Positions 137 through 22,849 of a DNA stretch of 64,000 nt are shown here, in pieces. The DNA comes from Bacteroidia bacterium (GTDB taxonomy: Bacteria; Bacteroidota; Bacteroidia; 2-12-FULL-35-15), in contig JAURXZ010000001.1 in NCBI GenBank assembly GCA_030654175.1, forward strand, positions 124,001 through 188,000, in the 5' to 3' direction. The notes under the pieces are model-generated. The model did no database searches, was not told the origin of the DNA, and saw only the letters and a program-made list of their open reading frames with translations. Positions within the stretch are counted from its first letter, which is position 1. Each line of letters opens with the position of its first letter. The translations under genes and the position numbers were made by a program.

Positions 137-595
137 TTAATTAATTTTTCCGATAAAATCTATGAGCTTTGATTCGAGCAGTGTGTAATTGGAAACAAAC
201 CTTGTATTGCCTTTGGGCATGGATAATCGTTCGTCCGATATGGAATATCCATACATTACAATTCGCTCACTGCATTGAAAAGAGAGACCTATTTTTGAAA
301 AAGTGTCATCGGTGTATTTGCGAAGCAGGTGGTAACAGCACATACGGGCATCACGATAACTTCGCACATTACTGATGTAAAAAAGTTCTGCATCCAATTC
401 AAATACCCGGATAGCAAGATTCACCAGGTATTGAGTAATCATTTTGATTTTCTCCTGTTCGTTTTGTGTTACAGTTGTATTGCATATAAAGCTGTCTAAA
501 AGACAAATCGTTCTGTGAAGGCCGATTTTACCTATAACCTTATCTATACTGGTTTGCAAATGGCCATAATCACTGGCTGTATTGGTTTCGCTCAC
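137..595 (-). CDS. Small protein with DnaA domain IV-like DNA-binding region
   Basis: A 152-aa protein. Residues about 67-125 read like the C-terminal TrpR-like domain IV of DnaA: a basic helix (RSYRDARMCCYHLLRKY) followed by a helix-turn-helix with the IG.SF spacing (FSKIGLSFQCSERIVMYG), in the place where DnaA has the DHSTVIHA signature. The exact signature residues are not conserved, so oriC DnaA-box recognition should not be assumed. The N-terminal 65 residues are predicted helical and unrelated to the AAA+ part of DnaA, which is absent. Such stand-alone domains occur in Bacteroidota mobile elements and probably bind DNA for replication or regulation (inference). It lies in the leftward operon with the giant helicase. 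Confidence 0.7.
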   Translation of the reverse strand: MSETNTASDYGHLQTSIDKVIGKIGLHRTICLLDSFICNTTVTQNEQEKIKMITQYLVNLAIRVFELDAELFYISNVRSYRDARMCCYHLLRKYTDDTFSKIGLSFQCSERIVMYGYSISDERLSMPKGNTRFVSNYTLLESKLIDFIGKIN

Positions 596-676: not shown

Positions 677-1462
677 TTATTTACTTTTGAGTATAATTTT
701 ATAACAGGTATCGTACTTTCCTTTGTGTAGGCAAAACTTACCTACCAAAAGCCTTTTACCATTGAGGTCTGTTTTAAAACCTTTTTTCTTCAGTTCAGCG
801 GGCAATACGGTATGTTTCTTTTCAGCCAAAAGTTCTTCAAGTATTTCTTCATCGGTAGGCTCCTTTACCGGTTCCGGTTGAACTTCCGGTTCTTCCTCAG
901 ATTTTGGTGTTTCAGCTGGTTCTTCGGTCGTTGTTTCAACTTCGGGTTGTATTTCAGCTTCCGGCATAGTTTCCTGAATTTCCTGCTCAGGTTCCGGCAA
1001 TGTTTCTTCTTCCTGTGGTTCAGGAGCAGGTTCTTCAAAAGGCTCCGGGGGTGGCTCGGGTTGAACTTCTTCTTCCCTTATTTCAGGTTCCTGTTCTTGG
1101 ATTTCCGGCTCAGGTTCCAAAACTGGTTCTTCTATAACTTCCTGGATAGGTTCGAGAATTGGTTCTTCCAAAGTTTCTTGGATTTCAAATCCCTGCTCCT
1201 GTAATACTACTTCCGGTTGTTCGTCTTCTTCCCGGTCGTTATTCTCCAAGTGATCCTCAAAATGTTCTTCCAAGTCTTCATCCAATTCGTGAGAGAGCAT
1301 TTCAAGTTTATTCAATAACTTTTCCTTGTCTTCATCGGTAGTATGCTGTAAATCTTCTTCCAACTCGTCAAAGCCTTTGATACGTTTTTGCAGCATTTTT
1401 GGAAGTGTTTGGATATCCACCTGGTTATCCTCAATAAACTGTTGGTGCGGAAATTTTTTCAT
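677..1462 (-). CDS. Glu/Pro-rich low-complexity protein with conserved ends
   Basis: 261 aa in three parts. Residues 1-78 are charged and probably helical (starts MKKFPHQQFIEDNQVD). About 79-205 is an extended Glu/Pro/Gln segment built from degenerate P-E-x-x-E units (LEPEPEIQEQEPEIREEE), likely disordered or a rigid spacer. About 205-261 is a compact, non-repetitive basic C-terminus (LLVGKFCLHKGKYDTCY). The design, a long acidic linker with a folded end, suits a tether or a nucleic-acid-mimic protein, but nothing identifies the function. It sits between a small membrane protein gene and the DnaA-IV-like gene on the same strand. Confidence 0.75.
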   Translation of the reverse strand: MKKFPHQQFIEDNQVDIQTLPKMLQKRIKGFDELEEDLQHTTDEDKEKLLNKLEMLSHELDEDLEEHFEDHLENNDREEDEQPEVVLQEQGFEIQETLEEPILEPIQEVIEEPVLEPEPEIQEQEPEIREEEVQPEPPPEPFEEPAPEPQEEETLPEPEQEIQETMPEAEIQPEVETTTEEPAETPKSEEEPEVQPEPVKEPTDEEILEELLAEKKHTVLPAELKKKGFKTDLNGKRLLVGKFCLHKGKYDTCYKIILKSK

Positions 1463-1482: not shown

Positions 1483-1716
1483 TTATACAGTTTGTTTTTC
1501 TTCATCGTTAAAACGGGATTCAATCATTCCCGAAATACCCGCAGTCAGTATTGAGGTAACTAATACTACTCCAACGGTTTTTAAAAACTCTTTTGTAGGT
1601 GGAATGTTGTAGGTGAACTTTCCACCCGCATTTTTTCCAAGGTTGTAATAGAGTAATGCTTCAGCTGTTCCTATTACAAGTCCAACAGTTGTTATTATTA
1701 TGGTATTTTTAGTCAT
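1483..1716 (-). CDS. Small two-helix membrane protein
   Basis: 77 aa with two hydrophobic segments, residues about 4-24 (IIITTVGLVIGTAEALLYY) and 46-65 (TVGVVLVTSILTAGISGM), joined by a polar loop. No signal peptidase site. Not recognised. It is 20 nt upstream of the Glu/Pro-rich gene and 24 nt downstream of the coiled-coil gene, so it belongs to the same operon. Small holin-like or membrane-anchor roles are possible but unsupported. Confidence 0.65.
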   Translation of the reverse strand: MTKNTIIITTVGLVIGTAEALLYYNLGKNAGGKFTYNIPPTKEFLKTVGVVLVTSILTAGISGMIESRFNDEEKQTV

Positions 1717-1740: not shown

Positions 1741-2355
1741 TTATTCTTTTTCTGATGCTAATTCCAACTTTTTGAATTTTTCTTTTATCTCATCCTGAAT
1801 TGGTTTTATTTTATTTAGTCCCCAAATGGATTTCAGTTCATTCAAAAAATTAAGCACAGCTTTCTGCGTTCGCTGAATCACTGTACTATCCTCTTTCAGG
1901 TTTTTAGGAATGAGTGTAGCCGTTTTCACCAATTCCTGACGGAGCTTTGTTGCAAGCGTTTTTTTCTTAGGCGGTTGGATTTCTCCGCTTTCAACTTTTC
2001 GCTGCCTGTCTTCTCTTAACCTTTGACGGCAAAGAGTTAAATCATCCAATACTTTTTCAACTTTTTCAATCACTTTTTTAGATTGAATTTTGCGTGTTTC
2101 CTTTTTAGAATTTTCTTCTATTTCATCGTGCGTTTCTTCATTGATGCGCTCAATATCCTCTTTCACCAGCTCAATGGTTTCCTTACCGATTTCTTCAGCT
2201 TCTTTTTTTAATTTTTTATCAGTCGGAAATTGTTCAAGATCAGCAAGGGTTTCATCAAATATGGAAAGTCCTTTTAACACTCTATCGCTAAGGAGCTTCT
2301 TGGAAATTTTTTCTTTTTCCAATAGGTCGTATGGATTGTTTTTTAAAGTGGCCAT
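1741..2355 (-). CDS. Lys/Glu-rich predicted coiled-coil protein
   Basis: 204 aa, highly charged, with long runs suited to helical coiled coil (for example residues 45-105, KKEAEEIGKETIELVKEDIE). No transmembrane segment and no enzymatic motif. It starts 17 nt after the stop of the 107-aa gene on the same strand. Function unknown; its place within the helicase/methylase operon suggests an accessory or structural partner, but that is guilt by association only. Confidence 0.7.
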   Translation of the reverse strand: MATLKNNPYDLLEKEKISKKLLSDRVLKGLSIFDETLADLEQFPTDKKLKKEAEEIGKETIELVKEDIERINEETHDEIEENSKKETRKIQSKKVIEKVEKVLDDLTLCRQRLREDRQRKVESGEIQPPKKKTLATKLRQELVKTATLIPKNLKEDSTVIQRTQKAVLNFLNELKSIWGLNKIKPIQDEIKEKFKKLELASEKE

Positions 2356-2372: not shown

Positions 2373-2696
2373 TTAGTGATTGTATTCGCCCTCAATGCCG
2401 AGATTTTTTAATAAGCTATCATGATCAGAAAGTGAAACACGAATGATAAACGTATCGCCTTCGATTTTTGTAATCATGCGGTCGGTCGCTTCCTTTTTTT
2501 CAATCTCTGTTTCAAATTCCATTGTATTGTAGAACCGGGTATCAATAAGATACTCCTCTATTTTAAGAGACGGATGCCTTTGTTCTTTTTCTATCTCCTT
2601 CCAATCTTCATAGAGTTGAAGTTTCACTTTACTGCATCCGCTTTCTTTTGCTTTATTCAGCAGGTTTATTACGTTGTCAATAGTTGTCTTTACCAT
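2373..2696 (-). CDS. Hypothetical protein (107 aa)
   Basis: A small soluble mixed alpha/beta protein (starts MVKTTIDNVINLLNKAKESG) with no recognised motif. Its start lies 15 nt after the helicase stop codon, so translation is probably linked to that gene. The stretch around residues 45-60 (EEYLIDTRFYNTMEF) and the C-terminal IIRVSLSDHDSLLKNLGI look strand-rich. No assignment offered. Confidence 0.7.
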   Translation of the reverse strand: MVKTTIDNVINLLNKAKESGCSKVKLQLYEDWKEIEKEQRHPSLKIEEYLIDTRFYNTMEFETEIEKKEATDRMITKIEGDTFIIRVSLSDHDSLLKNLGIEGEYNH

Positions 2697-2711: not shown

Positions 2712-5700
2712 TTATGCTGCTTTTCTTAATTCTTTAATTTGTTCCAAACGGTTTTTCATTCGCTTGAACGATTCCCTGAGTTGGATGATTTTAGTTAAGC
2801 GGTCGGCTGTTCCTTCCAGTGCTTCTCCTTTTCTTTTTTGTTCGGATTGTTTTGCTTTTGCTTCGTCCGAACCATCGTAAATCATCAGCTCACTTAATAA
2901 TTTCGGATTAAGTCTGGTAAATTCTTTTACCCGTTCTGCTACTGTTTTTGGTTTATAGCCTTTCTTAATTCGATCTTTGATAATGGCTTGCCCTTTCTCC
3001 TGAACGGCTTTGTCCCCGGTCTTTTCCTCCATGTACTTTTGCTTGCGTTCAATCTCCTTATCCATTTGTCCGGTTACTTTTTTCAAATCGAAACCAATGT
3101 CCAAGCCTCGTGGAGCCAGTATTTGTTCAATGCCTCTTTTAATCGCTGCATTGGCTTTGCGCACCTTGTCATATACTACCTGATCCTTATAGGTGTATTC
3201 AGTATTTTCATCATCGAGGTAATCTTTGTAGATTTTGAAAATGGTTTCAATGCTGCGGGCTTTGCCTTCTTCCTTCACAGGTTTGTATCGGTTTACAATA
3301 TCTTTTACATACCCGATGTTTTTATTAAAGATCTCCCGTTGCTCTACAATTTCTTCCAATACGCCTTTCTGATTGCTAAGTCCTGTGATCTCATCCTGCA
3401 AGCGTTCCCGTTCTTCCATCAGGATTAACTCTGCTAATGCCATAGGATCTGTTATTAAACCCATTTTTAATTCGGATGGATTAAATTCTTCCAGGTTGAG
3501 TGCGTTAGTTTTGCCTGCACGATACCATATTTCGTTGATACGATTTGTTTTTTCTTCCAGTTTTTGAAAGATAAATGTATCAATACTGTCTTCCATCATT
3601 GGATTGACAATACGGATATTCGCGTAGATATTTCCGAAGCGCCATATACGTCCTTCGAGCTGCTTCACATCAGTAGGGTTCCAGTCCAGCCAGCAATTGT
3701 AAAGTACAGTTGAACGGTTTTGTAAATTAATTCCTTCTTTAATTGTTGCGCTGCCGATAATTATTTTCACGCTGCCGGCAAGGAAGCGTTCTTTGATGCC
3801 TTCTTTTTTGGCTGCACTTAAACCGCTTTTAATAATACCAACTTCATCATCTTTGTAACCGATTTTTTGCACTAGGTATTCTTTTATCAACGGAAAAAAA
3901 TGTACGCCTGCATTCATGTAGATCACCTGCCCAGATACTTCCTGCTCATGTTCTTCGTGGTAACGTTTCACCGAACGTATGCACTCCATTATGTACATGA
4001 GCTTGGGTGAAGATTCAATGTATTGCGTGTAGGTAGGATGTTTGTCAGGATTACACGCATAGAGGTAAGGACTAAGTGCAAGCTGCCGTGCAAATGACAT
4101 TCCCCGCAAAATTCTCGTTCCTTCTTCTTCATCACTCGACAAATGTTTTTCATCCAATGCTTCACCTGCACTTTCATCTTCTGCTCCTTCTTCACTATCT
4201 TCAAGACCTTTTGTATTCACACAGAAATTAGTAAGACTGGTTTTCCCGGTTACGTACAGCTCCACATCATCCATGTATTCCTTTTGCCTTTGTGTCATAG
4301 GAAGGTTTGTGGATATTTGTTCTTCCGTTGGCAAGGGAATTATTTGGTTGTCTTCTTTTTTGTTAAGTAATGGCAAAACAATCTTGTTAGGCCGTTGTAT
4401 TTTCGCATCCTCTCCGGTTTTGTAAGTAATGAACTTAAAGATGAGCTGTTGCAGGGCTATGAGGTTATTGAAGCCCATCACAATTTCTTTTCGTTCAGGT
4501 TTCAGCTTGGCGTTAATTACCAACTCCATACTGGTTTTGATGAACGTATCAAAAAACTCTTTGATGTTTTTAATACCCCATTTTTCTAATTGCTGATAAC
4601 CAATGAGTGCCAATATAGAATAGATTTCAAGCGGGCTATTGGTGAATGGTGTTGCCGTAAGCAACAATACATTCCGCATTTGATTGTTGCGTAAAATATA
4701 CTGGCTTACCATAAAGCCACGTAAGGCTGTCATGGAAGGAGATCCTGAACGAATTTCGTATGATGCTTTTTCTCTTACCCCCGTTTCTCCTTTTACCTGC
4801 CCCTTTACCTGTGTGAAGGATTTTTTCATAGCATGAGCTTCATCTACCACCATGTAATCAAATCCTAAATCCTCTATGTTCACCGATCCACCCTTGATAC
4901 CTTTACCCATCATCTCGTTGATTTTCTCCTGGAGCTTTACCATGTCTCGTTTTTCTTCTGTGCCCTGGTTGAGTATATCGAACATTTCACTTCCAATAGT
5001 ATCCCATGTTTCATCATTGAATCCAAGCCGATTAAATCCTTCGTAGGTGAGAACGGAAATGCTAAACTCCGGTGCAGGTTTAATATTTCCTTTTTCATCC
5101 CGCAACTGGTCAATAAACTCTGTTCCTAAGTTATACAGGTCTATCACCTGGTACTGTGGTAACAATCCTGAAAGCAATACTTTTCCCTTATCAACTACTC
5201 CACGTAATTCACTTAACCAATTTTTATATGTTTGGTTTGGAACTACAATGAAAGGACGTTTGCATTGTCCGCTTTCTAATGCCTGTGCAAGGGAAAGGAT
5301 AGCGGTCATTGTTTTACCGAGGCCCACATCGTAGGCAACGCATCCTGAACCGTGTACGCTGATAAAGCCAATGCCTTCCCGTTGTGCAGGGCGAATGAAT
5401 AAAGGCTTATTTTTAAAGGTGCTGGAGCAGGTAAAAGCAACGGGCACTTTGAAATAATTTATTTCTACATAACCGTTGTATTTAGAGTTCCATTGCTGTT
5501 CAATGCGTACCTGGTCTTCACGGGTTAAGGCTTCAGCAAGAAAGCGTACAAAAAATTTATCGCCTTCCACTTTTGCGTTTTGTTTCAAACGCAATTTTTC
5601 TTCTTTGTCGTAATGGCGTGAAGGTGTTCCTCCATCGAGGTAAAACTGGATAATGTTCCAGTCGGTTGATTTTTTAAAATCGTCTTTTGGCAATTCCCTT

Positions 5701-7463
5701 AGCCATGTTTTAAAGGCTTCTACCAGTGAATTGCTTCCTTCAGCGTAACTTCCTGTTTTACTTACATACTCTTTAAAGCTGGTTCCATCTGCAAGCTGGC
5801 TGATGCGAATTTCTTTGGCGAAAGCTGAATCGGGTTTGATGAATAAGCGATTGGCCGTGTTTGGATCATTTAATGTGAGCTTGGGAGGTTTTACATTATC
5901 AAGTCCAGTCCATTGATTGTCGTACTGCTGTTTTCCGAACTCTTTTATGATTGCTTCTTTGTCTTTTAAGAGCATACTTTGACGTTCATAAATATTCTCG
6001 GCATAATATAGTACGCTTGGAATAAAACTGCCATTATGTGAGCAAATAACTCCGGCTTTTAACCAGCTCTTTAAATGCTCGGAAGCTGCTCCCAGCGGAA
6101 CAACATATTTTGACCAACCGTTTTTAGAATCAAGAATTGTTTTCTCATAATTGAATCCTCCGGTAGTACGCTTGTACCATATCCATGCTTTTATTTCTTC
6201 ATCGGTGATGCCTTTGTTGTATTCCTTCATCACTTCATCAAAACAAAAATATTCTTCCGGGCAGCCATCTTCATACTTGTCCTTTTCTCCGTTGAGCTTT
6301 CGGAGTGCTTTGTCTGCATGAGCTTTTTTTGTTTCGTTGATAACACGCTCGATATTTTCCTTTTTCATGGGATCATTTAATATTTGCTGCAAGGGTTCTT
6401 TAATTTCGGTTTGCAGGGCTTCTGTGGCTATTTCAGGAACATCTACCGAAGGCACATCAATACCCTGAATGATGTTGTCTGCCGTTCCCTTTACTTTGGT
6501 AACAGGCTTTCCGAAACGGTCAGTTGTTTGAAATTGCTCTCCCAAGATTTTCTCCGGGTGTTGTTTGAACCATTCGTCTCCGGTTAATAAACTAAGTGTG
6601 CTTGTAGCTTTTTCGCTTGTAATATTTTGTTTTTGCTCTTTTAACCAGGGATAATCTTCAAACACTTCTTTTGGTATTGGCTTGCCTTGCTTTAATGCCC
6701 ATTCTACAATCTTTTCGTGTTCGTCTCCATCCTTAGCATCCAATACGTTTGGCCTTCCGGTTTTTTGAATTGCTTTTATTTGCTGGTATTCCAGTTGGCG
6801 CATTTCCCATGCGTGTTCGGCATCGATAATGTCATTCTCTCCCACGTATTCTTTTTCTTCCATACTTTCCTGTCCGCTACCTGCAATCTTCACTACCGAT
6901 ACATTGTGAAGTTTATTAAGCTCTGATAAGGACTTTTCTGTAAGTGGCTGATCCAGCTTTAACAGGCGATACACTTTCTCCTTGATTTCTTCGGGGTGAT
7001 TCAGGTCGCCTTCCCGGAAATAATTATTGCTACCACCACTGTAATCCTTCATGTGTTTTATGCTGCGATAAAGAATACCGGATTGCATACCATCCTTGTT
7101 CATAGAAATATAAATTCCATTGTCAGGAGTAAACATTCCCATTAGGGTTAAATCTCCGCTTACTGCTGGACCACCCGGATTGAAGTTTACATCGTATTGC
7201 TTTAAGCCGAGGTATTCAGCCAGCTCTTTAAATGCTTTTTTTCCAAGTGATTTAAAATCTTGTTTAGCTGCTCCATTGGCAATTTCACTATCTCCATTAT
7301 CTCCCATGTAGCCGTCAATGTGGTCGTGTCTTGAAAGAAACGAAGCGAACTTTTTAAGGTGATCTGTACTTGTTTTCATGTTGTCTAAGTTTTGGTTCCG
7401 ATCACGCAAGTTCCTGTTGGCCTCCTGTGCTATTTTGCGGAACATTTTATACCCTTGTGCCAT
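2712..7463 (-). CDS. Giant SNF2-family (SF2) DNA helicase of a mobile-element polyvalent system
   Basis: About 1583 aa. Walker A AYDVGLGKTMTA is near residue 714, the DEAH box (MVVDEAHAMKKSF) near 874, motif III LLLTATPFTNSP follows, and C-terminal helicase motifs are near 1255-1280 (GSATIKEGINLQNRS, QLEGRIWRFGN). This order defines an SF2/SNF2-type translocase. The first ~700 residues are non-helicase and contain no methylase. The remaining C-terminus is helical. I place the start at 7463 (MAQGYKMFRK), 1 nt after the stop of the 100-aa gene; an upstream ATG at 7535 would force a 71-nt overlap. Large methylase-helicase proteins are known from phages and ICEs (for example P1 DarB), where they act in anti-restriction or DNA processing. 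Here the two halves are separate genes. Confidence 0.9.
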   Translation of the reverse strand: MAQGYKMFRKIAQEANRNLRDRNQNLDNMKTSTDHLKKFASFLSRHDHIDGYMGDNGDSEIANGAAKQDFKSLGKKAFKELAEYLGLKQYDVNFNPGGPAVSGDLTLMGMFTPDNGIYISMNKDGMQSGILYRSIKHMKDYSGGSNNYFREGDLNHPEEIKEKVYRLLKLDQPLTEKSLSELNKLHNVSVVKIAGSGQESMEEKEYVGENDIIDAEHAWEMRQLEYQQIKAIQKTGRPNVLDAKDGDEHEKIVEWALKQGKPIPKEVFEDYPWLKEQKQNITSEKATSTLSLLTGDEWFKQHPEKILGEQFQTTDRFGKPVTKVKGTADNIIQGIDVPSVDVPEIATEALQTEIKEPLQQILNDPMKKENIERVINETKKAHADKALRKLNGEKDKYEDGCPEEYFCFDEVMKEYNKGITDEEIKAWIWYKRTTGGFNYEKTILDSKNGWSKYVVPLGAASEHLKSWLKAGVICSHNGSFIPSVLYYAENIYERQSMLLKDKEAIIKEFGKQQYDNQWTGLDNVKPPKLTLNDPNTANRLFIKPDSAFAKEIRISQLADGTSFKEYVSKTGSYAEGSNSLVEAFKTWLRELPKDDFKKSTDWNIIQFYLDGGTPSRHYDKEEKLRLKQNAKVEGDKFFVRFLAEALTREDQVRIEQQWNSKYNGYVEINYFKVPVAFTCSSTFKNKPLFIRPAQREGIGFISVHGSGCVAYDVGLGKTMTAILSLAQALESGQCKRPFIVVPNQTYKNWLSELRGVVDKGKVLLSGLLPQYQVIDLYNLGTEFIDQLRDEKGNIKPAPEFSISVLTYEGFNRLGFNDETWDTIGSEMFDILNQGTEEKRDMVKLQEKINEMMGKGIKGGSVNIEDLGFDYMVVDEAHAMKKSFTQVKGQVKGETGVREKASYEIRSGSPSMTALRGFMVSQYILRNNQMRNVLLLTATPFTNSPLEIYSILALIGYQQLEKWGIKNIKEFFDTFIKTSMELVINAKLKPERKEIVMGFNNLIALQQLIFKFITYKTGEDAKIQRPNKIVLPLLNKKEDNQIIPLPTEEQISTNLPMTQRQKEYMDDVELYVTGKTSLTNFCVNTKGLEDSEEGAEDESAGEALDEKHLSSDEEEGTRILRGMSFARQLALSPYLYACNPDKHPTYTQYIESSPKLMYIMECIRSVKRYHEEHEQEVSGQVIYMNAGVHFFPLIKEYLVQKIGYKDDEVGIIKSGLSAAKKEGIKERFLAGSVKIIIGSATIKEGINLQNRSTVLYNCWLDWNPTDVKQLEGRIWRFGNIYANIRIVNPMMEDSIDTFIFQKLEEKTNRINEIWYRAGKTNALNLEEFNPSELKMGLITDPMALAELILMEERERLQDEITGLSNQKGVLEEIVEQREIFNKNIGYVKDIVNRYKPVKEEGKARSIETIFKIYKDYLDDENTEYTYKDQVVYDKVRKANAAIKRGIEQILAPRGLDIGFDLKKVTGQMDKEIERKQKYMEEKTGDKAVQEKGQAIIKDRIKKGYKPKTVAERVKEFTRLNPKLLSELMIYDGSDEAKAKQSEQKRKGEALEGTADRLTKIIQLRESFKRMKNRLEQIKELRKAA

Positions 7464-7464
7464 T

Positions 7465-7767
7465 TTAAAGAATGTGCGAAAGCTCCTGTTCAATAAGGGC
7501 AATGGCAGAACCAATCTGCATTCCTTCTTCGGCAACGTACCGGATTATCATGTCTTCCAGCTTTGCCATGCCCTTGTCTGTACTTTGCATTTCACACACC
7601 TTCGGCCATAAGAAGCGGTTGCACTCTTTCATCTCACCATGAATGAGTTGTTTTAATTCTTCAATCTGGTTATTATCATTTGCCATTGCTCGCAGGTTTA
7701 ATGTATTGATGTCTGTTTTGTTTTTGTTGTAAAGGATGCCCGATCCCACCAGGTAATTTGAAATCAT
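7465..7767 (-). CDS. Small protein between methylase and helicase genes
   Basis: 100 aa, predicted all-helical, no known domain. It starts 22 nt after the methylase stop and ends 1 nt before the preferred helicase start, so all three are very likely co-translated. An internal Met at 7686 (MANDNNQIEELKQ) is an alternative start; I kept 7767 because it closes the gap and is preceded by a purine-rich GAGAGA. Its position exactly at the joint of what is a single polypeptide in related systems suggests a linker or bridging subunit. That is an inference. Confidence 0.75.
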   Translation of the reverse strand: MISNYLVGSGILYNKNKTDINTLNLRAMANDNNQIEELKQLIHGEMKECNRFLWPKVCEMQSTDKGMAKLEDMIIRYVAEEGMQIGSAIALIEQELSHIL

Positions 7768-7789
7768 ATTTGTCTCTCTTTTTTATCAT

Positions 7790-10700
7790 TTATTTTTTTC
7801 TTAATAACAGTATGTCGGTTCCTATATCCGTTGTGTCAAAGGTTCTGATGGGTAAACGGTACGCATCCATTAAATCCACTTTGGAGGCAATCTTTTCTTT
7901 GACCTTCGCTGATTTTACATTGTAAGACAAGAAACTGCTCGGAACAACAAATACCAGTAGTCCGCCTTTCTTTAGTAAATCCAGTCCACGCAGGATAAAA
8001 TACTGGTCATACTCGGTTGCTCCAGTCCATTTTTTTTCTCCCATTCCTGCATACTTGCCTGTAAAGTCTCCGTAAGGAGGGTTGCCTATGACCAGGCTGT
8101 AAAGTGGATGGTCGAAATCATCTTTCAGATGAATGTTGCCTGCAAAGAATAAACTCTCAAATGATTTTTCGTGAATGTGTGCGTTGGGATAAAGTATTTG
8201 TGCTATTCGTGCTGAAAAATGGTTGGTCTCAAAGCCGAATACGATTGCATCTTTGGGTGCGTATTTTAAAAAGTTACCTGTACCAACGGACGGCTCCAAA
8301 ACCGAACCTCCGTCATATCCATACTTGAATGCCATTCCCCACATTTTTTGCACCACTACATCGGGTGTATAGTATTCATACAATACACCACGTCCCGCAG
8401 CGCCTTCTTTGATTAAACCACCGGAGCCGGTATATTGCCGGATATAATTTTTTTCTTCTTCGTTGAATGAGCTGCCTTCTTTGTCTTTCTTTTCAATGAA
8501 GGCTTCTATCTCCTTATTGAGTTCATGCTGACTTTGTTTTTTCATTTTTGATGGACCTTGCTTTTCAATATGCTGCGGTAGATCCACGAACTTTTGTGAA
8601 TCAGCGAACAGTAAGTCAACCATAAAAGTCATTACCGGATAATCGTCCTTATCGGTCAGATCGTTGTCCACAATCATGTTGTCCACGTAAATAGCAATCA
8701 AAGTGGCTTTTCTTTTATCCCCGGTTTTACCAATGGTTACATACCCTTTTTCGTAAGTATCGAACGCCCTTCTTTCTCCAAATTTTTTGGAAAGCTCATC
8801 TGCAATATTTTGAAGGGTGTCTAATGGTAATTTTTCCAGCTTGTCCTCAATGGCTTTGCGTAAGCGTGATTGGTTAAATTCCATTCTATTGACAAAGGCT
8901 TTATTCTGCGGATATTTATTATCTTCTTTTGTCCAGTAAGCTGCTTCCAACCCTTTGATGATACCCGTTTCTTTTCCTTGCTTTTTTAAATACGCAGCGC
9001 TGGTTTTATAAACCTTTTCATAGTAGCTCTTGGCATTGCTTATCATTTCAGGAAGTTCAAGGATTGCATGAGTTGAGCCTTTTACAATTGTCCAAGCTGC
9101 ATCCTTGTAATAAAATAAATCGGTCTTTGAATTTTGCAGGAGCTTACTAATTTGTTTGTAGGTTTCTGCGGAAATTCGGTTTCTTTCTCCGGCTGTTGAT
9201 AGATGTCCAAAATCAACATCTACTCCGGGAACTGGTACAATTTCATCAAGCTCTACTGTAATTTCTTTACTACTGCTTTTCTTGTCAGAGAACGAATAAC
9301 CTTCGACTATCTTCGCTGCATTGCTTATGTCAGTATCCTTTAGGTGATAACCCTTCAAAGGTTTCATTTGACTAATCGTAAGGTTATACTGGTAAACAAA
9401 ATCACTCAGGGGATTCGGTTTCTTTTCATAGAGCTGTGCATTGAGTTGATCCAGCTTTCGTTCAAATGTTTCTCCGTCTTTCCATACTACTTTGAAATAA
9501 ACAGTATCATTATTCCACTTTTTGTTTTTGATAAAATCATTGGCTTCCTGCCAGGTGTTTACAACAAGTGCTTTGGAATAATTTTCTTTTTCTGATAAAT
9601 GAATTTCTTTAAGTGATATTTCTTCACCAGGTACTTTGGGCTTATCCAGTACAACATCATTTTCTTTCGCAAAATCTCTCACAGCTTCCAGCGCAACAGT
9701 TAGATTTTTTATCTTTTTTTCTTCATTGCCGAACGAACTATCTTTTGCAATTAATAAAAGCTCCAGCTTTAGTTCATGTTCCTTCAATGCACCTTTTAGG
9801 GCTGCCTCTCTTGAAGCATAAGGCTGGCCATCTTCGCTTGGGCCATACATCATTCCATTGTAATCCCCGAACTTTTTAGAAGCATCGATCCCTATTTTAT
9901 AATCGTTGTCGCTTGTCTTTACAATTTTAATTACTGCTTCGTACTGTCCTGCTTTCGGCATAGGAATTTCAATCCTTTCATAATTCTTTCCGGCAGTTTT
10001 TTCAGTGTACACACCGCTGTCATTTGTCAAAGGATCCTTTGATTTCTTTTCAACTTTTTTGGAATGACTGGCTTCAAGAGGGTTATCAATGTAATGCTGA
10101 ATAACTTCTTTGCTGTCTTCCAAATTCTCAACGGTATGGTCAATATCCTGTGCCAATTGTTTGTATTCCAGTTTTGGTTTATTGGTTTTAGGATTGATAA
10201 GTCCTTTCTTCTCGTTTTTTTGTTTTTGGATTTGATGCTGGATTATTTCAAGCGCTTTTTTTGCATCTGCAATCGGACGGCAATGTTCCGCAACTGCCCA
10301 CCATTCATTTCCTTCTTTGTTGTTATCGGATAGAATTTCTCCAAGTGGTTCAATGCTTTCATAGCCGAGATAAAGGTTTATATAGGGGTAAATATTATCC
10401 GTAGGAAAACCAAGTTCTTCAAACAGTTCCCTTCCACGTTTTTCCCATTCTTCAAGCATTTTCATTCGACTAACATCAATTCCGTAGTCTGTTGGATGCG
10501 CCATTTGAACAAGCTCAAACATTTCCAATGCGGATGCTTTGGAAAGATTCTTTTCATTGATCTTTAGAAGGTGAGGGAAATTTGTTTTAAGAACGGACTT
10601 CATATCGAACAATTGAAAATTATGCGATAGGAAAGGCTCTGTTGTTCCTACTGGAACCAATACATTCGGCAGAAATGTATCTCCCGTTTTGAGGTCTTCC

Positions 10701-12673
10701 GCAATAGCCGTTGCTGGTGGTTTACTGGATTTCATGTCAGGAGTAGTTTTTTCTTCTTTTGAATTGAAGTATTCATCAATGAGTTCATTTACCACTATCT
10801 GAACTGAATCTTTATGATAGTTTTCTATGGCACGATTATCAAGAATATTGGTAACAACATAATCCCGGAATCTGCTGATGTTATCTTCTATCTCTCCGGC
10901 ATACCCTCTTTGTTTACCCTTTTGCAGAATAATGGCAAAGAGGTCATCCTGAAAGATCAAGCTCTCGTCCTGAACCAATTTTTCAGCAAAAGTCATCTCT
11001 GCTTCCAGCTGCTCGATTTGTTCTTTGAGTGAGTTTTTCTGATCGTTCACACCTTTTTCACCTTTCAGGTTTTTTAATTCCTCTCGCAGCTCTTGTACTT
11101 TTTTCTTGCGTGGGTTTTCAATGTGATCCCTGAAATACTCCATTGATTCTACATAGCGGAAAGCAAGATCAATAACCGGAAGGTTTTTATCAAAGGCTTC
11201 CTGTGCGCTGAATGGCCTTTTAAAACCTTGTGCTAAAAACTGCTCAATGATTTCTTTTTCTTCTTCGGGCGTGTGTAAGCGTTCAAATTCCAGTTTTGGA
11301 TTTTCCTTTGCTTTGGAAGTGGTGAAGGATTTATCTTCTAATGAATCAGTAGAGTTCTCATCGTCCTCTATTTCGCTTTCTTCTTGCGTTAAATCAATCT
11401 TATGGCCTTGTTTGATGATATTGGTCAGCCATTGGCTTAAAAACTGGTTCAGCTCCTTTTTACGCCTTAAATCCACATACTCTTTTCCGTCTCCCTGGTC
11501 GGGATATACCACTTGGTATCCGTACTGATCCTGAAAGGTCATTGCTTCTGCCATTTCCATTTCAGGAATAATGCGAATTTGCATATCAGGATCAGGAACC
11601 AAGTCGCCATTCTGCTCGAATAAATGCGAAAGCGCAATGAGGTAGTTTCCCTTTTTATCCTTGCCCAGGTAATCGAAATTCAAATCCATCAATCCTCCTT
11701 TGGGATCCTTCACAGATTTACCGCTATCCTTTCCTGCTTCGATGTGTTTTATCAAATCAGGGATAATCTGCATTAGCTTTTTATAAATGGCGCTGTAAGG
11801 CTGTGCAAGGGGTTTACCTGTCGAACGCTTTTCATACCGTTTAAAAGATTTGATGATCCGTTCATGGCTTCGCCACATATTTTCAATGGAACTACTGCCT
11901 AATTCGGGATAATTTTCTTTTAACCAGTTATCAAAAAGCTCTCGGCTTATGCTATCCGTTTTACCTGCGAACTCCGGTTTTCCAGCTGCCCATTTGTAGA
12001 ACTTTTGCAGGGCAAGGTTTTCTAACTCACGTTTTTTGTCGCCTTCCGTTTCGTAAATTTCTTCAGAGATTTCTGACGATTTTGGATTTAAACCTTTAAT
12101 AATGCTTGCTTTGTGAGTAGGCACTTTTTGTCCTTCGGGATAAATAATTTTCCCTTCATCAAACAGGGTGCGAGCCTCTTTGATATGAGTTTTTGGCAAA
12201 GCAGCAAGTGAGAGAAAGCGATCCCCAAACTCCTGACGTGCAAAATTGGTAGCAATAACTTCCGCTTTAGGTTTTGATGCTTCAAAGATGATGTAGTTTT
12301 TAATTTGCCCATCAGTGAGCGTAATCATTACAAAGCTGAACTCCCTGTTCTCAATATTGGTTCGTACAGCTTCAACAGAAGGGGACAGAAAAAGGTCGGG
12401 GCCATCGGTTGAAGTGGGAAGTGCTGCTTTCACCTTTTCTGCAAATTCCAATGCTTCCGGTGTACTATCTCCGTACCACATGGTTTTCATTTTACTATGC
12501 CTGAAACTCATTGCCCTTAGCTTGGGCTGAAGTTGTGGGGATGGCTCGGCATTAAACCGGATCTCAATCCCTCTTTGTTTTGGGTTTTCTGTAATAGCAA
12601 TAACTTCATCTGCCCATCGGTGGATAGATGCACTTTCACCCTTACCCGAAGTTTCCTGTTTTTTCCTGGTCAT
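7790..12673 (-). CDS. Giant N6-adenine DNA methyltransferase, polyvalent-protein type
   Basis: 1627 aa. The catalytic domain is at the far C-terminus: AdoMet motif I (LEPSVGTGNFLKYAP) near residue 1461, the catalytic NPPY (VIGNPPYGDF) near 1530, then GLLVFVVPSSFLS, typical of gamma-class N6-adenine methylases. Residues about 20-85 form a small module (GIEIRF...MSFRHSK...MWYG) resembling the FRWS/WYA module found at the N-termini of mobile-element polyvalent proteins. The middle ~1300 residues are helical and charged and carry no assigned catalytic motif. It is the first gene of the operon downstream of the 26-nt repeat array. Probable role: modification or protection of element DNA during transfer, together with the helicase (inference). 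Confidence 0.9.
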   Translation of the reverse strand: MTRKKQETSGKGESASIHRWADEVIAITENPKQRGIEIRFNAEPSPQLQPKLRAMSFRHSKMKTMWYGDSTPEALEFAEKVKAALPTSTDGPDLFLSPSVEAVRTNIENREFSFVMITLTDGQIKNYIIFEASKPKAEVIATNFARQEFGDRFLSLAALPKTHIKEARTLFDEGKIIYPEGQKVPTHKASIIKGLNPKSSEISEEIYETEGDKKRELENLALQKFYKWAAGKPEFAGKTDSISRELFDNWLKENYPELGSSSIENMWRSHERIIKSFKRYEKRSTGKPLAQPYSAIYKKLMQIIPDLIKHIEAGKDSGKSVKDPKGGLMDLNFDYLGKDKKGNYLIALSHLFEQNGDLVPDPDMQIRIIPEMEMAEAMTFQDQYGYQVVYPDQGDGKEYVDLRRKKELNQFLSQWLTNIIKQGHKIDLTQEESEIEDDENSTDSLEDKSFTTSKAKENPKLEFERLHTPEEEKEIIEQFLAQGFKRPFSAQEAFDKNLPVIDLAFRYVESMEYFRDHIENPRKKKVQELREELKNLKGEKGVNDQKNSLKEQIEQLEAEMTFAEKLVQDESLIFQDDLFAIILQKGKQRGYAGEIEDNISRFRDYVVTNILDNRAIENYHKDSVQIVVNELIDEYFNSKEEKTTPDMKSSKPPATAIAEDLKTGDTFLPNVLVPVGTTEPFLSHNFQLFDMKSVLKTNFPHLLKINEKNLSKASALEMFELVQMAHPTDYGIDVSRMKMLEEWEKRGRELFEELGFPTDNIYPYINLYLGYESIEPLGEILSDNNKEGNEWWAVAEHCRPIADAKKALEIIQHQIQKQKNEKKGLINPKTNKPKLEYKQLAQDIDHTVENLEDSKEVIQHYIDNPLEASHSKKVEKKSKDPLTNDSGVYTEKTAGKNYERIEIPMPKAGQYEAVIKIVKTSDNDYKIGIDASKKFGDYNGMMYGPSEDGQPYASREAALKGALKEHELKLELLLIAKDSSFGNEEKKIKNLTVALEAVRDFAKENDVVLDKPKVPGEEISLKEIHLSEKENYSKALVVNTWQEANDFIKNKKWNNDTVYFKVVWKDGETFERKLDQLNAQLYEKKPNPLSDFVYQYNLTISQMKPLKGYHLKDTDISNAAKIVEGYSFSDKKSSSKEITVELDEIVPVPGVDVDFGHLSTAGERNRISAETYKQISKLLQNSKTDLFYYKDAAWTIVKGSTHAILELPEMISNAKSYYEKVYKTSAAYLKKQGKETGIIKGLEAAYWTKEDNKYPQNKAFVNRMEFNQSRLRKAIEDKLEKLPLDTLQNIADELSKKFGERRAFDTYEKGYVTIGKTGDKRKATLIAIYVDNMIVDNDLTDKDDYPVMTFMVDLLFADSQKFVDLPQHIEKQGPSKMKKQSQHELNKEIEAFIEKKDKEGSSFNEEEKNYIRQYTGSGGLIKEGAAGRGVLYEYYTPDVVVQKMWGMAFKYGYDGGSVLEPSVGTGNFLKYAPKDAIVFGFETNHFSARIAQILYPNAHIHEKSFESLFFAGNIHLKDDFDHPLYSLVIGNPPYGDFTGKYAGMGEKKWTGATEYDQYFILRGLDLLKKGGLLVFVVPSSFLSYNVKSAKVKEKIASKVDLMDAYRLPIRTFDTTDIGTDILLLRKK

Positions 12674-14798: not shown

Positions 14799-15701
14799 TT
14801 ACTTATTATTTTCTATTTGTTTTTTTGAAATTTCTACCACTTGATGCAATTTTTGCTGCAATAATTTTTTGCTCGGTAGCTCGGTAAGATATTCTGCTAT
14901 TTTAATACCTGACTTGTGTAGCTGCAATAATTCTATTTGTTCTTTATTTCCCTCTGCACAAAGTAATAAACCTATTGGTGTTTTCTCTCCTGCCTGCATT
15001 TCGTTTTTCTCCAACCACCGCAGGTATAACTCCATTTGTGATTTGTAACCTGCTTTAAACTCGCCTAATTTCAGGTCTATGGCAATAAGACGTTTTAGCT
15101 TTCGGTGATAAAATAATAAATCCAATCTGAAATCTTTGCCATCTATTATCATTCGTTTTTGGCGTTCTACAAATGAGAAGCCTTGCCCAAGCTCCAGTAT
15201 AAAACCCTCTAACTCTCTTAAAATAGCATCCTCAAGGTTTTTTTCGCTGAATGTATTTTTCAAACCCAGGAAATCGAGAAAATAAGGATCTCTGAAAACC
15301 AAATCGGGAGTAAGTTTATCTTTATCTCTCAACTGTTTTATTTCTTGCTTTATCAGTTGACCGGGCTTTTTACTAATGGCGGTTCGCTCGTAAAGCATCC
15401 CATCTATTTTTTCACGAAGGGTTTTTACATTCCATTTTTCTATTCGACACATTTCGGCATAAAATTCACGTTGCAAGGGATGCTTTAATGGTATGAGAGC
15501 TACAAAATGTGTCCAACTCAATTGTCGTATTGCCGACACGACAATTTGTTCATCAGGAAAAACATTGTAAAACTGAATCATCCTACGGAGATTTTTTTCC
15601 TCAAAATTATTTCCATATTGGCTAACCAATTGTCGTGCCAACGAAACGACAATCTGTTTACCATATTCGGCACGTTTATTATGTAACAAATCAATACTCA
15701 T
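14799..15701 (-). CDS. PDDEXK-family nuclease (DUF1016/YhcG type), N-terminally shortened
   Basis: 300 aa from the first ATG. The N-terminal DUF1016 region starts at KRAEYGKQIVVSLARQL and contains LRRMIQFYNVFP and LSWTHFVALI. The C-terminal PDDEXK nuclease-like core includes DGKDFRLDLLFYHRKL and LIAIDLKLGEFK, then YLRWLEKNE. The family normally starts ~30-40 residues earlier. The same frame stays open upstream to about 15,787 and encodes matching residues (RLIEESKQYVAQTVNSTL, then LYWKIGKR) but contains no ATG, GTG or TTG before the stop. Either a non-canonical start is used or the N-terminus has been lost. Such genes are often horizontally transferred; a role in defence or DNA repair is suspected only. 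Confidence 0.85.
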   Translation of the reverse strand: MSIDLLHNKRAEYGKQIVVSLARQLVSQYGNNFEEKNLRRMIQFYNVFPDEQIVVSAIRQLSWTHFVALIPLKHPLQREFYAEMCRIEKWNVKTLREKIDGMLYERTAISKKPGQLIKQEIKQLRDKDKLTPDLVFRDPYFLDFLGLKNTFSEKNLEDAILRELEGFILELGQGFSFVERQKRMIIDGKDFRLDLLFYHRKLKRLIAIDLKLGEFKAGYKSQMELYLRWLEKNEMQAGEKTPIGLLLCAEGNKEQIELLQLHKSGIKIAEYLTELPSKKLLQQKLHQVVEISKKQIENNK

Positions 15702-15830: not shown

Positions 15831-17000
15831 TTAAATAAATATGCTCTTTAGCCTTTGCATAGCTTTGGGTGTATAGCTGAAGCTCTCCCAACCTATTTTA
15901 AAAGCATTATTACCTACGTCTTTGCGAAGCTGAGCATTAGTTATGAGTTGGTCAGTTTTGTTAATCCAGTCTTCGTCCGAGGCTGCGATAAAGCCATTTT
16001 CAGCCTCTTTAACTATGTTGGTGAATGGAAAGATGTTTGGAACAATAGATGGGATCATGTTAGCGGAAAAATCAAGGTAACGATTCAATGATCTGCCGGA
16101 AGTATTATAAGTATTATCGGCAAGCGGAAGTAAGCCTATGTCAAAGGCAAGGCCGTTTAAACGTTGATGATATTCATGGAAGGGGACAGGCTTTTCATAG
16201 GTTATGCGAAGTTCATTGAATAACCCATACTGTTCAGCAATCTTTTTGGACCAGCCGAAAATTATTATTTCAATCTTGTCCATATGCTTATCCAGTAATG
16301 CAGCAATGGCTTTTTCAATTGTTTTAAGATCGTTTCCCTGGCTGGCATCCAGTATAATTCCAATTCTTACTTTATCGGTTGAGTTACGTTGTATTTGAGT
16401 AATTTCTTCAAAAGTGAAATTGGATAACAGGTTAGGAAAGCGCTCAAAATAAAGTAAAAATTCTTCATCATGTTTTTGCACCAGTTCATTATAATAATTC
16501 AGGATTTGGTTATTAGCAGCTGAAAGGATATCTACTTTTAATAAATTACTTACTAAAGTGTTTTTTAATTCAGGTTTCAATTTTTTAAAGTCCGGGTGAT
16601 ACTGAGGCAGCTCATGGTAATTCATTTCCATGTCCATCACAAACTCTATATCGTCATTAATCTCTCTCATACTTTTAATGATATACGCAGCATCCGTAAA
16701 CATTACCGGAAGCACTATATAATCTGCCCACTCCACCAAGCGAAAATCAACAGGGGTGTCGTAATCATCAAACAACTTATTAAAGTCCCATTTGTGGATA
16801 TGTCCGATAATTGCGGAATGCGTGTTTGTCCTGTTCAGCTCCAGAGCAGGTAAAATCATACGATAGTAACCTGTCTCATTCATACAAGGTGAAAGAAACA
16901 AAACGTGAATTTTATTATCATCCATATTAAATTGAGGATATTTTTCTTTGAAATTTTTTACCGTGTTTAAACGGGAATACAGTTCTTTTAAGGTTTTCAT
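15831..17000 (-). CDS. GT-B fold glycosyltransferase (group 1-like)
   Basis: About 389 aa. The N-terminal half starts a Rossmann-like unit at KIHVLFLSPCMNETGYYRMI. The C-terminal half has VRIGIILDASQGNDL, IEIIIFGWSKKIAEQYG, FDIGLLPLADNTYNTSGRSL and a terminal helix with ENGFIAASDEDWINKTDQLI, the order of a GT-B nucleotide-sugar binding domain. I chose the start at 17,000 (MKTLKELYSR), 4 nt after the upstream gene's stop; the longer frame to 17,096 would overlap that gene by 92 nt. No membrane segment. Acceptor unknown. Glycosyltransferases on mobile elements may modify DNA bases, surface glycans or proteins. Confidence 0.75.
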   Translation of the reverse strand: MKTLKELYSRLNTVKNFKEKYPQFNMDDNKIHVLFLSPCMNETGYYRMILPALELNRTNTHSAIIGHIHKWDFNKLFDDYDTPVDFRLVEWADYIVLPVMFTDAAYIIKSMREINDDIEFVMDMEMNYHELPQYHPDFKKLKPELKNTLVSNLLKVDILSAANNQILNYYNELVQKHDEEFLLYFERFPNLLSNFTFEEITQIQRNSTDKVRIGIILDASQGNDLKTIEKAIAALLDKHMDKIEIIIFGWSKKIAEQYGLFNELRITYEKPVPFHEYHQRLNGLAFDIGLLPLADNTYNTSGRSLNRYLDFSANMIPSIVPNIFPFTNIVKEAENGFIAASDEDWINKTDQLITNAQLRKDVGNNAFKIGWESFSYTPKAMQRLKSIFI

Positions 17001-17004
17001 AGTT

Positions 17005-17256
17005 TTAGTCGTTTTGTTTAATTCCATCGTAATAGCGTTCCAATTCCTCTCCACTATCTTTGATATAAATGATTGCTGTTTTTGCTTTAATTCCATAATA
17101 ATTGATACGGTTTCGTAACCGGTTCAGCCCTAATTGAGGATCCTTGTTTTTAGAAAATTGGTGTGTCCAATCAATTGAAAATAGAGTACGTGTATTGCCG
17201 TCAGCGAAATACACAACGCACTTGTAGTGCGAATCTTTAATAAGTTTCCAAGCCAT
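17005..17256 (-). CDS. Hypothetical protein (83 aa)
   Basis: Small, probably beta-rich (MAWKLIKDSHYKCVVYFADG; KAKTAIIYIKDSGEELERY). The ending with a strand, Lys-Thr-Ala and a tyrosine pair resembles small element proteins that form a beta sheet, but I cannot name a family. Its first base overlaps the last base of the 135-aa gene, and the glycosyltransferase starts 4 nt after its stop, so the three are one transcriptional unit. Confidence 0.65.
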   Translation of the reverse strand: MAWKLIKDSHYKCVVYFADGNTRTLFSIDWTHQFSKNKDPQLGLNRLRNRINYYGIKAKTAIIYIKDSGEELERYYDGIKQND

Positions 17257-19467: not shown

Positions 19468-20400
19468 TTATATTCCACAAACACCGCTGCATTCAGAGGT
19501 GAACATATCGAGTTGGTTTTCCTGTAAGTCTACTTCTTTGAGAGGCTGAGCGCTTCGATGGAGATAGATAGGTTTCTCTATCCCTTTTTGAGTACTGTTT
19601 CTAATTTTTTCATCCAACCTGATTAATTTTTTCCATTCCTTCGGATGGTTAAGTTTCATATCCCGCCACCGGTGGTCGGATTGAAAGGGACAAAAGATGC
19701 AGGCGCTTTTAGGAGGGATGGGGAAATTGTTTACCCTCAACCATTCAACACAATCGGATCTGCGGAAAAGCGCAGTGTAAGGAACTTTGTCATGACCACT
19801 TTTTTTTGATTTTACATTCAGGAAAGGATACACGAATGTTAACCACCTGGTACGTGGATATTTCATCCGTTCAATTTCTTCAAGCGTGATACCGAGCCAC
19901 ATTTCAGTATCCGGTGTATGCTGTTTAAATTTTAATCCATAAATTTTTCTAAGGGCTTTGTAGATTTCTTGCGTTTTATATTCTTCTGTGCATTGTCGTT
20001 TAAGTATTCCTACATTCCCGTGCTCGTCTTTCGTGAAAGCGGGTATGGAAGCAAAGCGATTGCCTGATTTGTTTGTACCGTGAATTAAGTCGCTGTACAG
20101 AGATTTCTTTCCCGTTTGAATGATAGGTATGCCATCGTTTTCTTTTTGCCAGTTTTTTAGCCATTTTAAATGTTCATAGGTTGCTTTACTTTCGGAGCCT
20201 GTATCGGAGAATATGGCAAAGTCTGCCCGTTCAACAAACCCGATACTGCTCATTAGATAAAGTGCTGTGGACTGTTGTCCTAAGCCCAACGAAATCACTT
20301 TATAGTTTTTCTTATCAGGTATGTTATAGCTTTTTCGCATCCTAACCAGGTAAAATGTTTTATTCATTGCTGATACTATTGTTCTGAAAATATTTTTCAT
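19468..20400 (-). CDS. PAPS-reductase-like PP-loop enzyme
   Basis: 310 aa. The PP-loop variant SLGLGQQSTALYL (residues 37-49) replaces the usual SGGxDS. It is followed by FAIFSDTGSESKATYEH, RQCTEEYK near residue 134, and a Cys cluster (SACIFCPFQSDHRW near 230-243; CSGVCGI at the C-terminus). This layout is that of the phosphoadenosine-phosphosulfate reductase superfamily proteins common in phages and ICEs, which are thought to make ATP-activated thio- or other modifications of nucleic acids rather than to reduce sulfate. The start overlaps the upstream gene's stop in an ATGA junction. Substrate unknown. Confidence 0.85.
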   Translation of the reverse strand: MKNIFRTIVSAMNKTFYLVRMRKSYNIPDKKNYKVISLGLGQQSTALYLMSSIGFVERADFAIFSDTGSESKATYEHLKWLKNWQKENDGIPIIQTGKKSLYSDLIHGTNKSGNRFASIPAFTKDEHGNVGILKRQCTEEYKTQEIYKALRKIYGLKFKQHTPDTEMWLGITLEEIERMKYPRTRWLTFVYPFLNVKSKKSGHDKVPYTALFRRSDCVEWLRVNNFPIPPKSACIFCPFQSDHRWRDMKLNHPKEWKKLIRLDEKIRNSTQKGIEKPIYLHRSAQPLKEVDLQENQLDMFTSECSGVCGI

Positions 20401-22768: not shown

Positions 22769-22775
22769 CTTTTAG

Positions 22776-22849
22776 TAGCGAGAGAGAGACTTGAACTCTC
22801 GACCTCAGCGTTATGAATGCTGCGCTCTAACCACCTGAGCTACCTCGCC
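22776..22849 (-). tRNA. tRNA-Met (anticodon CAT)
   Basis: 74-nt cloverleaf on the minus strand: acceptor GGCGAGG pairs with TCTCGCT (two G-T pairs), D-stem GCTC/GAGC, anticodon loop TTCATAA (CAT), T-stem GAGAG/CTCTC around TTCAAGT, discriminator A, no encoded CCA. The anticodon stem CAGCA/CGCTG has one A-C mismatch next to the loop. It looks like an elongator tRNA-Met. Its 3' end faces the mobile element, consistent with use as an attachment site; a second 5' half lies 235 bp away. Confidence 0.93.

Follow-up and report, generated by a model that had tools for sequence, protein, structure and literature searches.

A DarB-like methylase and helicase encoded as separate chains, with a small conserved protein at their joint, in a virus-like element of Bacteroidota

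DarB forms part of the head of phage P1 and protects DNA in cis against restriction of the EcoKI type; its kind of methylase is thought to depend on a translocating ATPase, to which it is coupled in one polypeptide or through gene neighbourhood, and a domain called LPD36 sits N-terminal of the methylase (PMC5512222). Here we analyse an operon of this kind in a 64,000-nucleotide (nt) stretch of a Bacteroidia bacterium genome (contig JAURXZ010000001.1, positions 124,001 to 188,000). We call this stretch the window and count positions from its first letter unless stated otherwise. A sequence-only reading of the window had described a 1627-amino-acid (aa) methylase, a 100-aa protein and a 1583-aa helicase on separate genes spaced by 22 and 1 nt, and the open frames are as it described them; we refer to the three products as MT, SM and HE. 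The split enzyme belongs to the known DarB-like kind, and what appears to be new is the chain break together with SM, within a virus-like group that has no name in the collections searched. The main features are the following.

7790..12673, minus strand: MT, a 1627-aa polyvalent-type protein (open frame, Pfam, PHROG, PDB profile)
7793..8548, minus strand: methylase module, MT residues 1376-1627, including a GSGG stretch N-terminal to the methylase (13-sequence alignment)
7465..7767, minus strand: SM, the 100-aa joint gene (open frame, family profile)
7465..7686, minus strand: conserved core of SM, about 73 aa from Met28 (alignment, profiles, AlphaFold model)
2712..7463, minus strand: HE, a 1583-aa SNF2-type SF2 helicase/translocase with an ATG start (open frame, Pfam, PHROG, motifs)
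6834..7463, minus strand: N-terminal extension of HE, residues 1-210 of about 280 (comparison with fused relatives)
6537..6572, minus strand: the WFKQHPEKILGE motif (HPEK), HE residues 298-309 (comparison of split and fused loci)

Pfam places N6_Mtase at residues 1433-1626 of MT (expectation value, E, 4.6e-12) and DUF6908 at 319-424, and a PDB sequence-profile search shows that the methylase resembles EcoKI M and TaqI. The methylase domain is C-terminal, as had been proposed, but the NPPY motif, thought to lie at the very C-terminus, is found at about residues 1531-1534, some 95 residues before the end, and is invariant across 13 aligned relatives. The G-S-G-G stretch N-terminal to the methylase was located by alignment, and its place may be the one that the literature assigns to LPD36, a domain with a GXGU motif. 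In HE, Pfam recognises SNF2-rel_dom at 705-886 (E 1e-12) and Helicase_C at 1173-1277, and helicase motifs I, II, III and VI are retained across the split clade wherever the sequence is readable. An in-frame TTG upstream of the HE start would give a protein of 1607 aa overlapping SM.

As in DarB of P1 and the 'DNA methylase-helicase dyad', an N6-adenine methylase of the EcoKI/TaqI type is followed by an SNF2-type ATPase. A methylase with NPP(Y/F) is present and the SNF2-type ATPase is its neighbour gene, and the single chain of the dyad is replaced by separate chains. Unlike DarB, the window has at least two chains, SM at the joint and an additional N-terminal region in HE, and its setting is a virus-like element that encodes a Zot-like ATPase. 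MT hits the same PHROG families of one-chain proteins as HE (phrog_1685, phrog_11801 and phrog_10089, 'DarB-like antirestriction'); along the 2278 positions of phrog_1685 the methylase matches 41-280 and the best helicase stretch falls at 956-1223. The one-chain homologues presumed by the sequence-only reading exist, both in these families and in records of Leptospira phage LE1 and of Leptospira, Treponema and Chryseobacterium plasmids. Open reading frame LE1-0015 of LE1 and the homologues on these plasmids are 35-45% identical to the methylase and 27-32% to the helicase over the aligned parts, with the same order and an HPEK-type motif after the methylase, but they are single frames of 1764-2274 aa and have no SM. 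Type I and Type III restriction-modification systems likewise divide methylase and SF2 motor between cooperating subunits, and MT resembles EcoKI M; unlike in those systems, no specificity subunit or nuclease domain was recognised here, and the relatives are of phage and plasmid type.

Comparison with the fused relatives defines what has been added at the joint. In LE1 and the L. kirschneri, Treponema and Chryseobacterium plasmids, only about 0-21 residues separate the end of the methylase from the counterpart of HE 278-298, and the counterparts of WFKQHPEKILGE, which are WFKQHPDKVLGE in Treponema and YFEENPEHVFGD in LE1, come shortly after the methylase. Since the fused methylase runs directly into HE ~280-298, SM and the first ~280 residues of HE are both extras at the joint of the window. 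The proposal that the 100-aa gene stands at the domain boundary is therefore right about position but not about a simple cut. A simple frameshift split of a fused chain can be rejected as well, because the fused relatives have neither SM nor HE 1-280 at the joint. The N-terminal extension of HE, absent at this place in the fused relatives, varies within the split clade: G140 retains little of it, and the G570 and G036 alignments begin at HE ~290. An AlphaFold model of the HE N-terminus was poor (predicted local distance difference test, pLDDT, 46) and was not used.

Pfam recognised nothing in SM above its cut-off. The conserved core of about 73 aa begins at Met28, and residues 1-27 are present in only part of the close clade. 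Five relatives differ both in residues 1-27 and in the core, and in all five nonsynonymous change is lower than synonymous change in either part, with a weaker contrast in residues 1-27. A small gene lies at the same place in the distant split loci of G036 (69 aa), G144 (75 aa), G218 (63 aa) and G111 (79 aa), and in G045, G610, G733 and G584 SM forms the C-terminal domain of a RadC-type protein of 251-252 aa. Pfam RadC covers residues 53-172 in G045 and G610 (E 7e-38 and 1.9e-35), the G584 protein matches plasmid JAB/RadC proteins by tblastn, and G733 was assigned by similarity; the RadC-linked form is restricted to one subclade of the methylase tree (see below). Such fusions would fit a docking domain able to carry another enzyme. 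A profile built from ten close SM sequences recovered all eight distant joint genes (E 1.5e-8 to 1.3e-4), the next best of 3466 frames being at E 0.29, and the reciprocal profile, built from the four RadC-linked sequences, recovered the close SM sequences, one of them weakly at E 0.014. The family is retained down to ~20-30% identity. On the low nonsynonymous change, the profile recovery and the RadC fusion we reject a chance frame, and SM is not LPD36, which precedes the methylase while SM comes after it. By these sequence comparisons SM is a real conserved family tied to the split. It is apparently undescribed: tblastn of the SM core against plasmids and phages gave nothing at E <= 1, and in the literature searched no title or abstract opening mentions a small gene at such a joint. 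AlphaFold models the full 100 aa at a mean pLDDT of 75, with helices at 15-30, 32-46, 55-61, 64-81 and 85-98; Foldseek gave no match to this model at E under 1, its best VIA Z of 4.0 is meaninglessly low for a helical protein, and the best hit of a PDB sequence-profile search with SM was at E 0.075.

The three genes occur in the same order in other genomes and in IMG/VR contigs, as the sequence-only reading had anticipated. Besides the window, MT-SM-HE is found in seven more loci (L036, L037/G659, L038/G019, L039, L040, L045 and L046, among them those of G140 and G040), a recurrence that is more than chance. MT is interrupted by the contig end in L045, and in distant split loci a stand-alone methylase of 236-262 aa takes the place of the long MT. 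In G040 the helicase gene (L046:8206-12612, plus strand) is broken by a TAG stop into frames of 951 and 500 aa.

A methylase profile matched 52 of 395 class-level genomes, of which we read the 15 best-scoring and 9 that looked fused or unclear. SM is present in 14 of the 15 best; in the fifteenth, G561, the contig ends at the methylase. Seven of the nine tested as fused, and in G745 (1685 aa) and G581 blastp found no helicase; G745 is labelled fused, by its length, in the smaller tree only. Altogether, wherever the joint of a split genome locus could be read SM was there, in 18 of 18 (in 17 of them the contig also carries the helicase, while G111 has its helicase on a different contig), and it was found at none of 11 fused loci (the seven tested genomes and four named phage or plasmid records). 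In the loci read, the two large genes were never found far apart without the small gene, and fused versions were found, so that neither of the outcomes named beforehand as damaging was seen. When the SM profile was run over the 395 class genomes it gave 15 matches, 14 of them strong and all at a split joint, and a single weak one within a 595-aa frame of G064 (E 6e-4). Since all 14 strong matches are in the profile or are near-copies of its members, this survey shows specificity rather than discovery. Over 395 phylum-wide genomes the profile matched only G000 and G218, both already known as members, and one marginal sequence containing stops.

IMG/VR loci were recruited by the methylase alone, which gave 235 relatives; 80 were kept and classed by frame structure as 72 fused, 7 split and 1 unclear (L235, which fits neither class). 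One of the seven, L202, is in fact a fused gene that changes of frame have interrupted, and we reclassed it as fused. We looked for SM in plus-strand frames of at least 45 aa within the fetched stretches. A profile made from the genome loci alone detected it in five of the six remaining split loci (L157, L159, L161, L166 and L176; E 1e-20 to 1.8e-7), as genes of 72-78 aa lying 3-12 nt downstream of the methylase, and it was found in 0/72 fused loci, where the best E with a retrained profile was 0.17.

In a tree of 52 methylase domains, 23 split and 29 fused sequences are parted by one branch (100/99; 100% of bootstraps), with the root left open, and a smaller methylase tree has the same branch at 80/98 and 92% of bootstraps. 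The larger tree contains 31 IMG/VR rows (25 fused, 6 split) and omits all other IMG/VR loci, near-copies, G561, G581 and eight genome rows of fused type on long branches, G745 among them. One change between split and fused on the tree points to one origin, with SM kept for long over a deep clade; repeated independent splits are rejected, as this unrooted tree requires one change.

We see an even chance that the window encodes a split, non-covalent DarB-like methylase-helicase dyad joined by SM, with a role in anti-restriction. MT would modify adenines, HE would move along double-stranded DNA using ATP, and SM would serve as a small helical adaptor keeping MT attached to the HPEK linker or translocase, replacing the peptide link of the one-chain forms. 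As SM goes with broken chains only, which is what would be expected of a linker, we infer that methylase and motor meet through it. The most likely role of the operon would be to shield the DNA of the element itself from host restriction at about the time of entry. With the enzyme naturally split and a small subunit added, each part could be expressed, mixed or left out, and the physical link between methylase and translocase becomes directly testable.

Several observations weigh against this reading. In six split genome loci the HPEK motif lies on a gene of its own, of 80-218 aa, between SM and the helicase (L108:8205-8588; L109, L111, L113, L050 and L052), and in the IMG/VR locus L159 a 719-aa gene separates SM from HE, so SM is not the sole link there; loci with a separate HPEK gene might encode a machine of at least four chains. 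L189, the sixth split IMG/VR locus, has a 63-aa frame with only borderline similarity to SM (E 0.0039 when a tiny set was searched, and 0.071 with the retrained profile over the full set). With one origin, the correlation of SM with the split is one phylogenetic event, and Fisher values overstate it. Near-copies inflate the counts as well, with L036 and the window both among the 18 split loci and several among the 72 fused. Finally, the SM model is of middling quality and has no convincing fold match.

The first alternative is that SM is a regulator and not a bridge, acquired with the split, that keeps the methylase or translocase switched off, or licenses it, until packing or entry. The protein is small and predicted to be helical, its gene comes next after that of the methylase in those SM-bearing loci that were read, and the fused loci do without it, all of which a regulator would allow. 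At the same time, its sequence bears no mark of an inhibitor, a regulator need not follow the chain break, and in four genomes SM is part of a RadC-type protein; we regard this explanation as unlikely.

It is more unlikely still, in our estimate, that the methylase and translocase form a modification or defence system, directed against other elements or serving epigenetic control, and not an anti-restriction device of the element. PADLOC gave moderate HE matches to DrmD of DISARM and to BrxHI and BrxHII of BREX (E down to 2.7e-14), and such helicases are methylase-coupled. However, the similarity lies in the helicase C-terminal domain, with the best DrmD and BrxH stretches confined to about HE 1190-1311, and PADLOC found no other DISARM or BREX component in nine window proteins besides helicase and generic methylase matches. 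Moreover, the relatives that cover both halves are one-chain phage and plasmid proteins, IMG/VR virus records have these genes too, and Pfam recognised no nuclease in the seven operon proteins scanned.

The RadC fusion has also to be considered as the original state, in which SM would recruit a RadC-like DNA- or nucleotide-processing activity and, with the RadC part lost in most loci, would persist as a remnant docking domain. The fused form in G045, G610, G733 and G584 is what speaks for it, but that form occurs in one subclade only and stand-alone SM is commoner, and we hold this explanation to be improbable. That SM is a translational coupler or a neutral frame hitch-hiking at the joint, as the 22- and 1-nt spacing and the alternative HE start inside SM might suggest, is very hard to square with its low nonsynonymous relative to synonymous change, its retention at such low identity and its fusion to RadC.

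The operon sits in a virus-like element of ~49 kilobases (kb), which spans 97.6-146.7 kb of the contig (about -26 kb to 22.7 kb in window positions) and is conserved with G019 and G040. The window edge and the stretch to its left encode a 298-aa protein, a Zot-like ATPase, a cargo block, a 284-aa capsid candidate (contig 111762-112616), a 265-aa protein with an invariant HExxH, many short proteins that by eye have one membrane helix, fibre-like repeats, an amidase, a beta-propeller protein, a GH108 protein and an M23 peptidase; the element also gave an endolysin match. The ATPase matches Pfam Zot at E 2e-4 and phrog_2666, named terminase large subunit by PHROGs, at E 1.9e-6; a PDB sequence profile gave only chance-looking matches. 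The sequence-only reading had compared the two large proteins with polyvalent proteins of phages and integrative and conjugative elements. Among those proteins of the element that were scanned or inspected by eye we recognised virus-like ones but no conjugation proteins (relaxase, mating-pair or coupling), and a conjugative element is unlikely on the proteins scanned. No integrase was seen in the element, a Phage_integrase match lying on the same contig ~24 kb to the right, and its two ends, as tested, share no repeat of at least 14 bases. A tRNA-Met (22775-22849) lies at its right end; 5' stretches of this tRNA, up to ~19 nt, recur ~280 nt further on (about 23098-23131), perhaps a trace of integration.

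The Zot-like ATPase accompanies the split form in viral records: it is present in 6/6 split IMG/VR records (48-70 kb, E <= 1.3e-34) and in 0/25 fused control records, which were picked from the 72 fused IMG/VR loci and of which several are fragments. It was also found in six genome loci. A broadened ATPase profile run on ten genomes found it in G570 and G738 and did not recognise it in eight distant split genomes, which may carry another kind of element or a diverged ATPase; in the five of these eight loci that were read, the neighbours are fibre, lysin or membrane-protein genes. The split IMG/VR records (G751-G756) also share a 265-aa protein (6/6) and a 177-aa protein (6/6), and the capsid candidate is in 4/6 of them, G756 having been read only to 40 kb. 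One of them, G752, at 70.5 kb, carries a terminal repeat of 228 nt, of which 227 are identical, together with an integrase, and is therefore probably a complete temperate virus genome. Three adjacent paralogues of the capsid candidate occur in G752 (L253:6307-8612, minus strand). The 265-aa protein (L041:3825-4622, minus strand) has HExxH and a later conserved Glu and Asp in 9/9 aligned sequences; it is probably a zinc peptidase of the virus group, of the zincin kind.

Neither the capsid candidate nor the 265-aa protein had a PDB profile match at E <= 1, and in G752 the four unassigned of seven frames longer than 350 aa gave no Pfam match under 0.005. Among ten chosen long frames of G751, G753 and G754 there were matches to a spike or virion-structural protein (one), SbcC, RecT and an exonuclease, and none to a portal, terminase or tape measure; six of the ten frames gave either no match or a single one at E 0.005-0.01. 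Two ATPases and one 265-aa protein, run by tblastn against 50,697 phage records, found nothing. Scans of viral contigs with HE, the capsid candidate and the ATPase also found nothing, a weak negative because the methylase scan later yielded six such records. On these comparisons the operon looks like part of a virus-like group of Bacteroidota without a name in the collections searched. Tailless viruses with an FtsK-HerA packaging ATPase are similar in having a packaging-type ATPase, lysins and short membrane-helix proteins and in having no recognised tail genes, except that our element has fibre- or spike-like ones; unlike those viruses, of 7-18 kb, it has ~49-70 kb, a Zot-like ATPase and a capsid protein that is only a candidate (PMC5894146).

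SM was a specific marker in both genome surveys (class and phylum), and it leads to a virus group without relatives by tblastn among the phage records searched. Taking these points together, we put forward tentatively, as a proposal that falls short of an even chance, that the split dyad with an obligate adaptor of ~72 aa marks undescribed, temperate, tailless, membrane-containing Bacteroidota viruses of ~50-70 kb, defined by the Zot-like packaging ATPase, the 265-aa zincin, the 177-aa protein and multiplying capsid-like proteins, and that the adaptor is portable, also being fused to RadC, and assembles giant anti-restriction machines from separately packaged parts.

The operon continues beyond HE. 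On the minus strand, MT, SM and HE are followed in order of transcription by genes of 107, 204, 77, 261 and 152 aa, with successive gaps from MT to the 152-aa gene of 22, 1, 15, 17, 24, 20 and 81 nt. These and one further gene of the element are listed here.

2373..2696, minus strand: 107-aa downstream gene (not found in L040 and L045, the latter of G140)
1741..2355, minus strand: 204-aa downstream gene, conserved (locus comparison)
1483..1716 (contig 125483-125716), minus strand: 77-aa downstream gene, conserved (element comparison)
677..1462, minus strand: 261-aa Glu/Pro-rich protein, with conserved ends and a variable middle (locus comparison)
137..595, minus strand: 152-aa protein, weakly similar to the C-terminal domain of DnaA (Pfam E 0.0045, under the cut-off)
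15831..17096, minus strand: 421-aa protein of the same element, with a homologue in IMG/VR G752 at E 1.7e-72 (element comparison)

The 152-aa protein had been called DnaA-IV-like; a similarity is there, but at the strength given above it stays weak. That all these products may form one multi-subunit machine with MT, SM and HE is a conjecture of the sequence-only reading; the 107-aa gene was missing from two relatives, and the 261-aa gene varies. The downstream genes accompany MT-SM-HE in most of the seven further loci, L039 ending within the 204-aa gene, and HE with downstream genes is found on two more short contigs (L044 and L047; genomes G015 and G129). In distant split loci a long gene comes right after the helicase (L108:12260-13849, plus strand, with counterparts in L111, L113 and L052); the copy tested matches the ATPase family phrog_6891 at E 4e-23.

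The cargo block between the capsid candidate and the ATPase (L041:9721-17886, plus strand) has no homologues in the compared elements; presumably its genes are ATPase, TIR-like, GTPase and GAP1-like conflict genes. Two other proteins of the window resemble defence families. A 300-aa protein (14799-15701, minus strand) matches the PADLOC candidate defence family PDC-S02 at E 2.9e-112 and, among the compared loci, occurs only in L036, and a 310-aa protein (19468-20400, minus strand) has weak similarity to SspD (E 5.3e-8) and is 77% conserved in G040.

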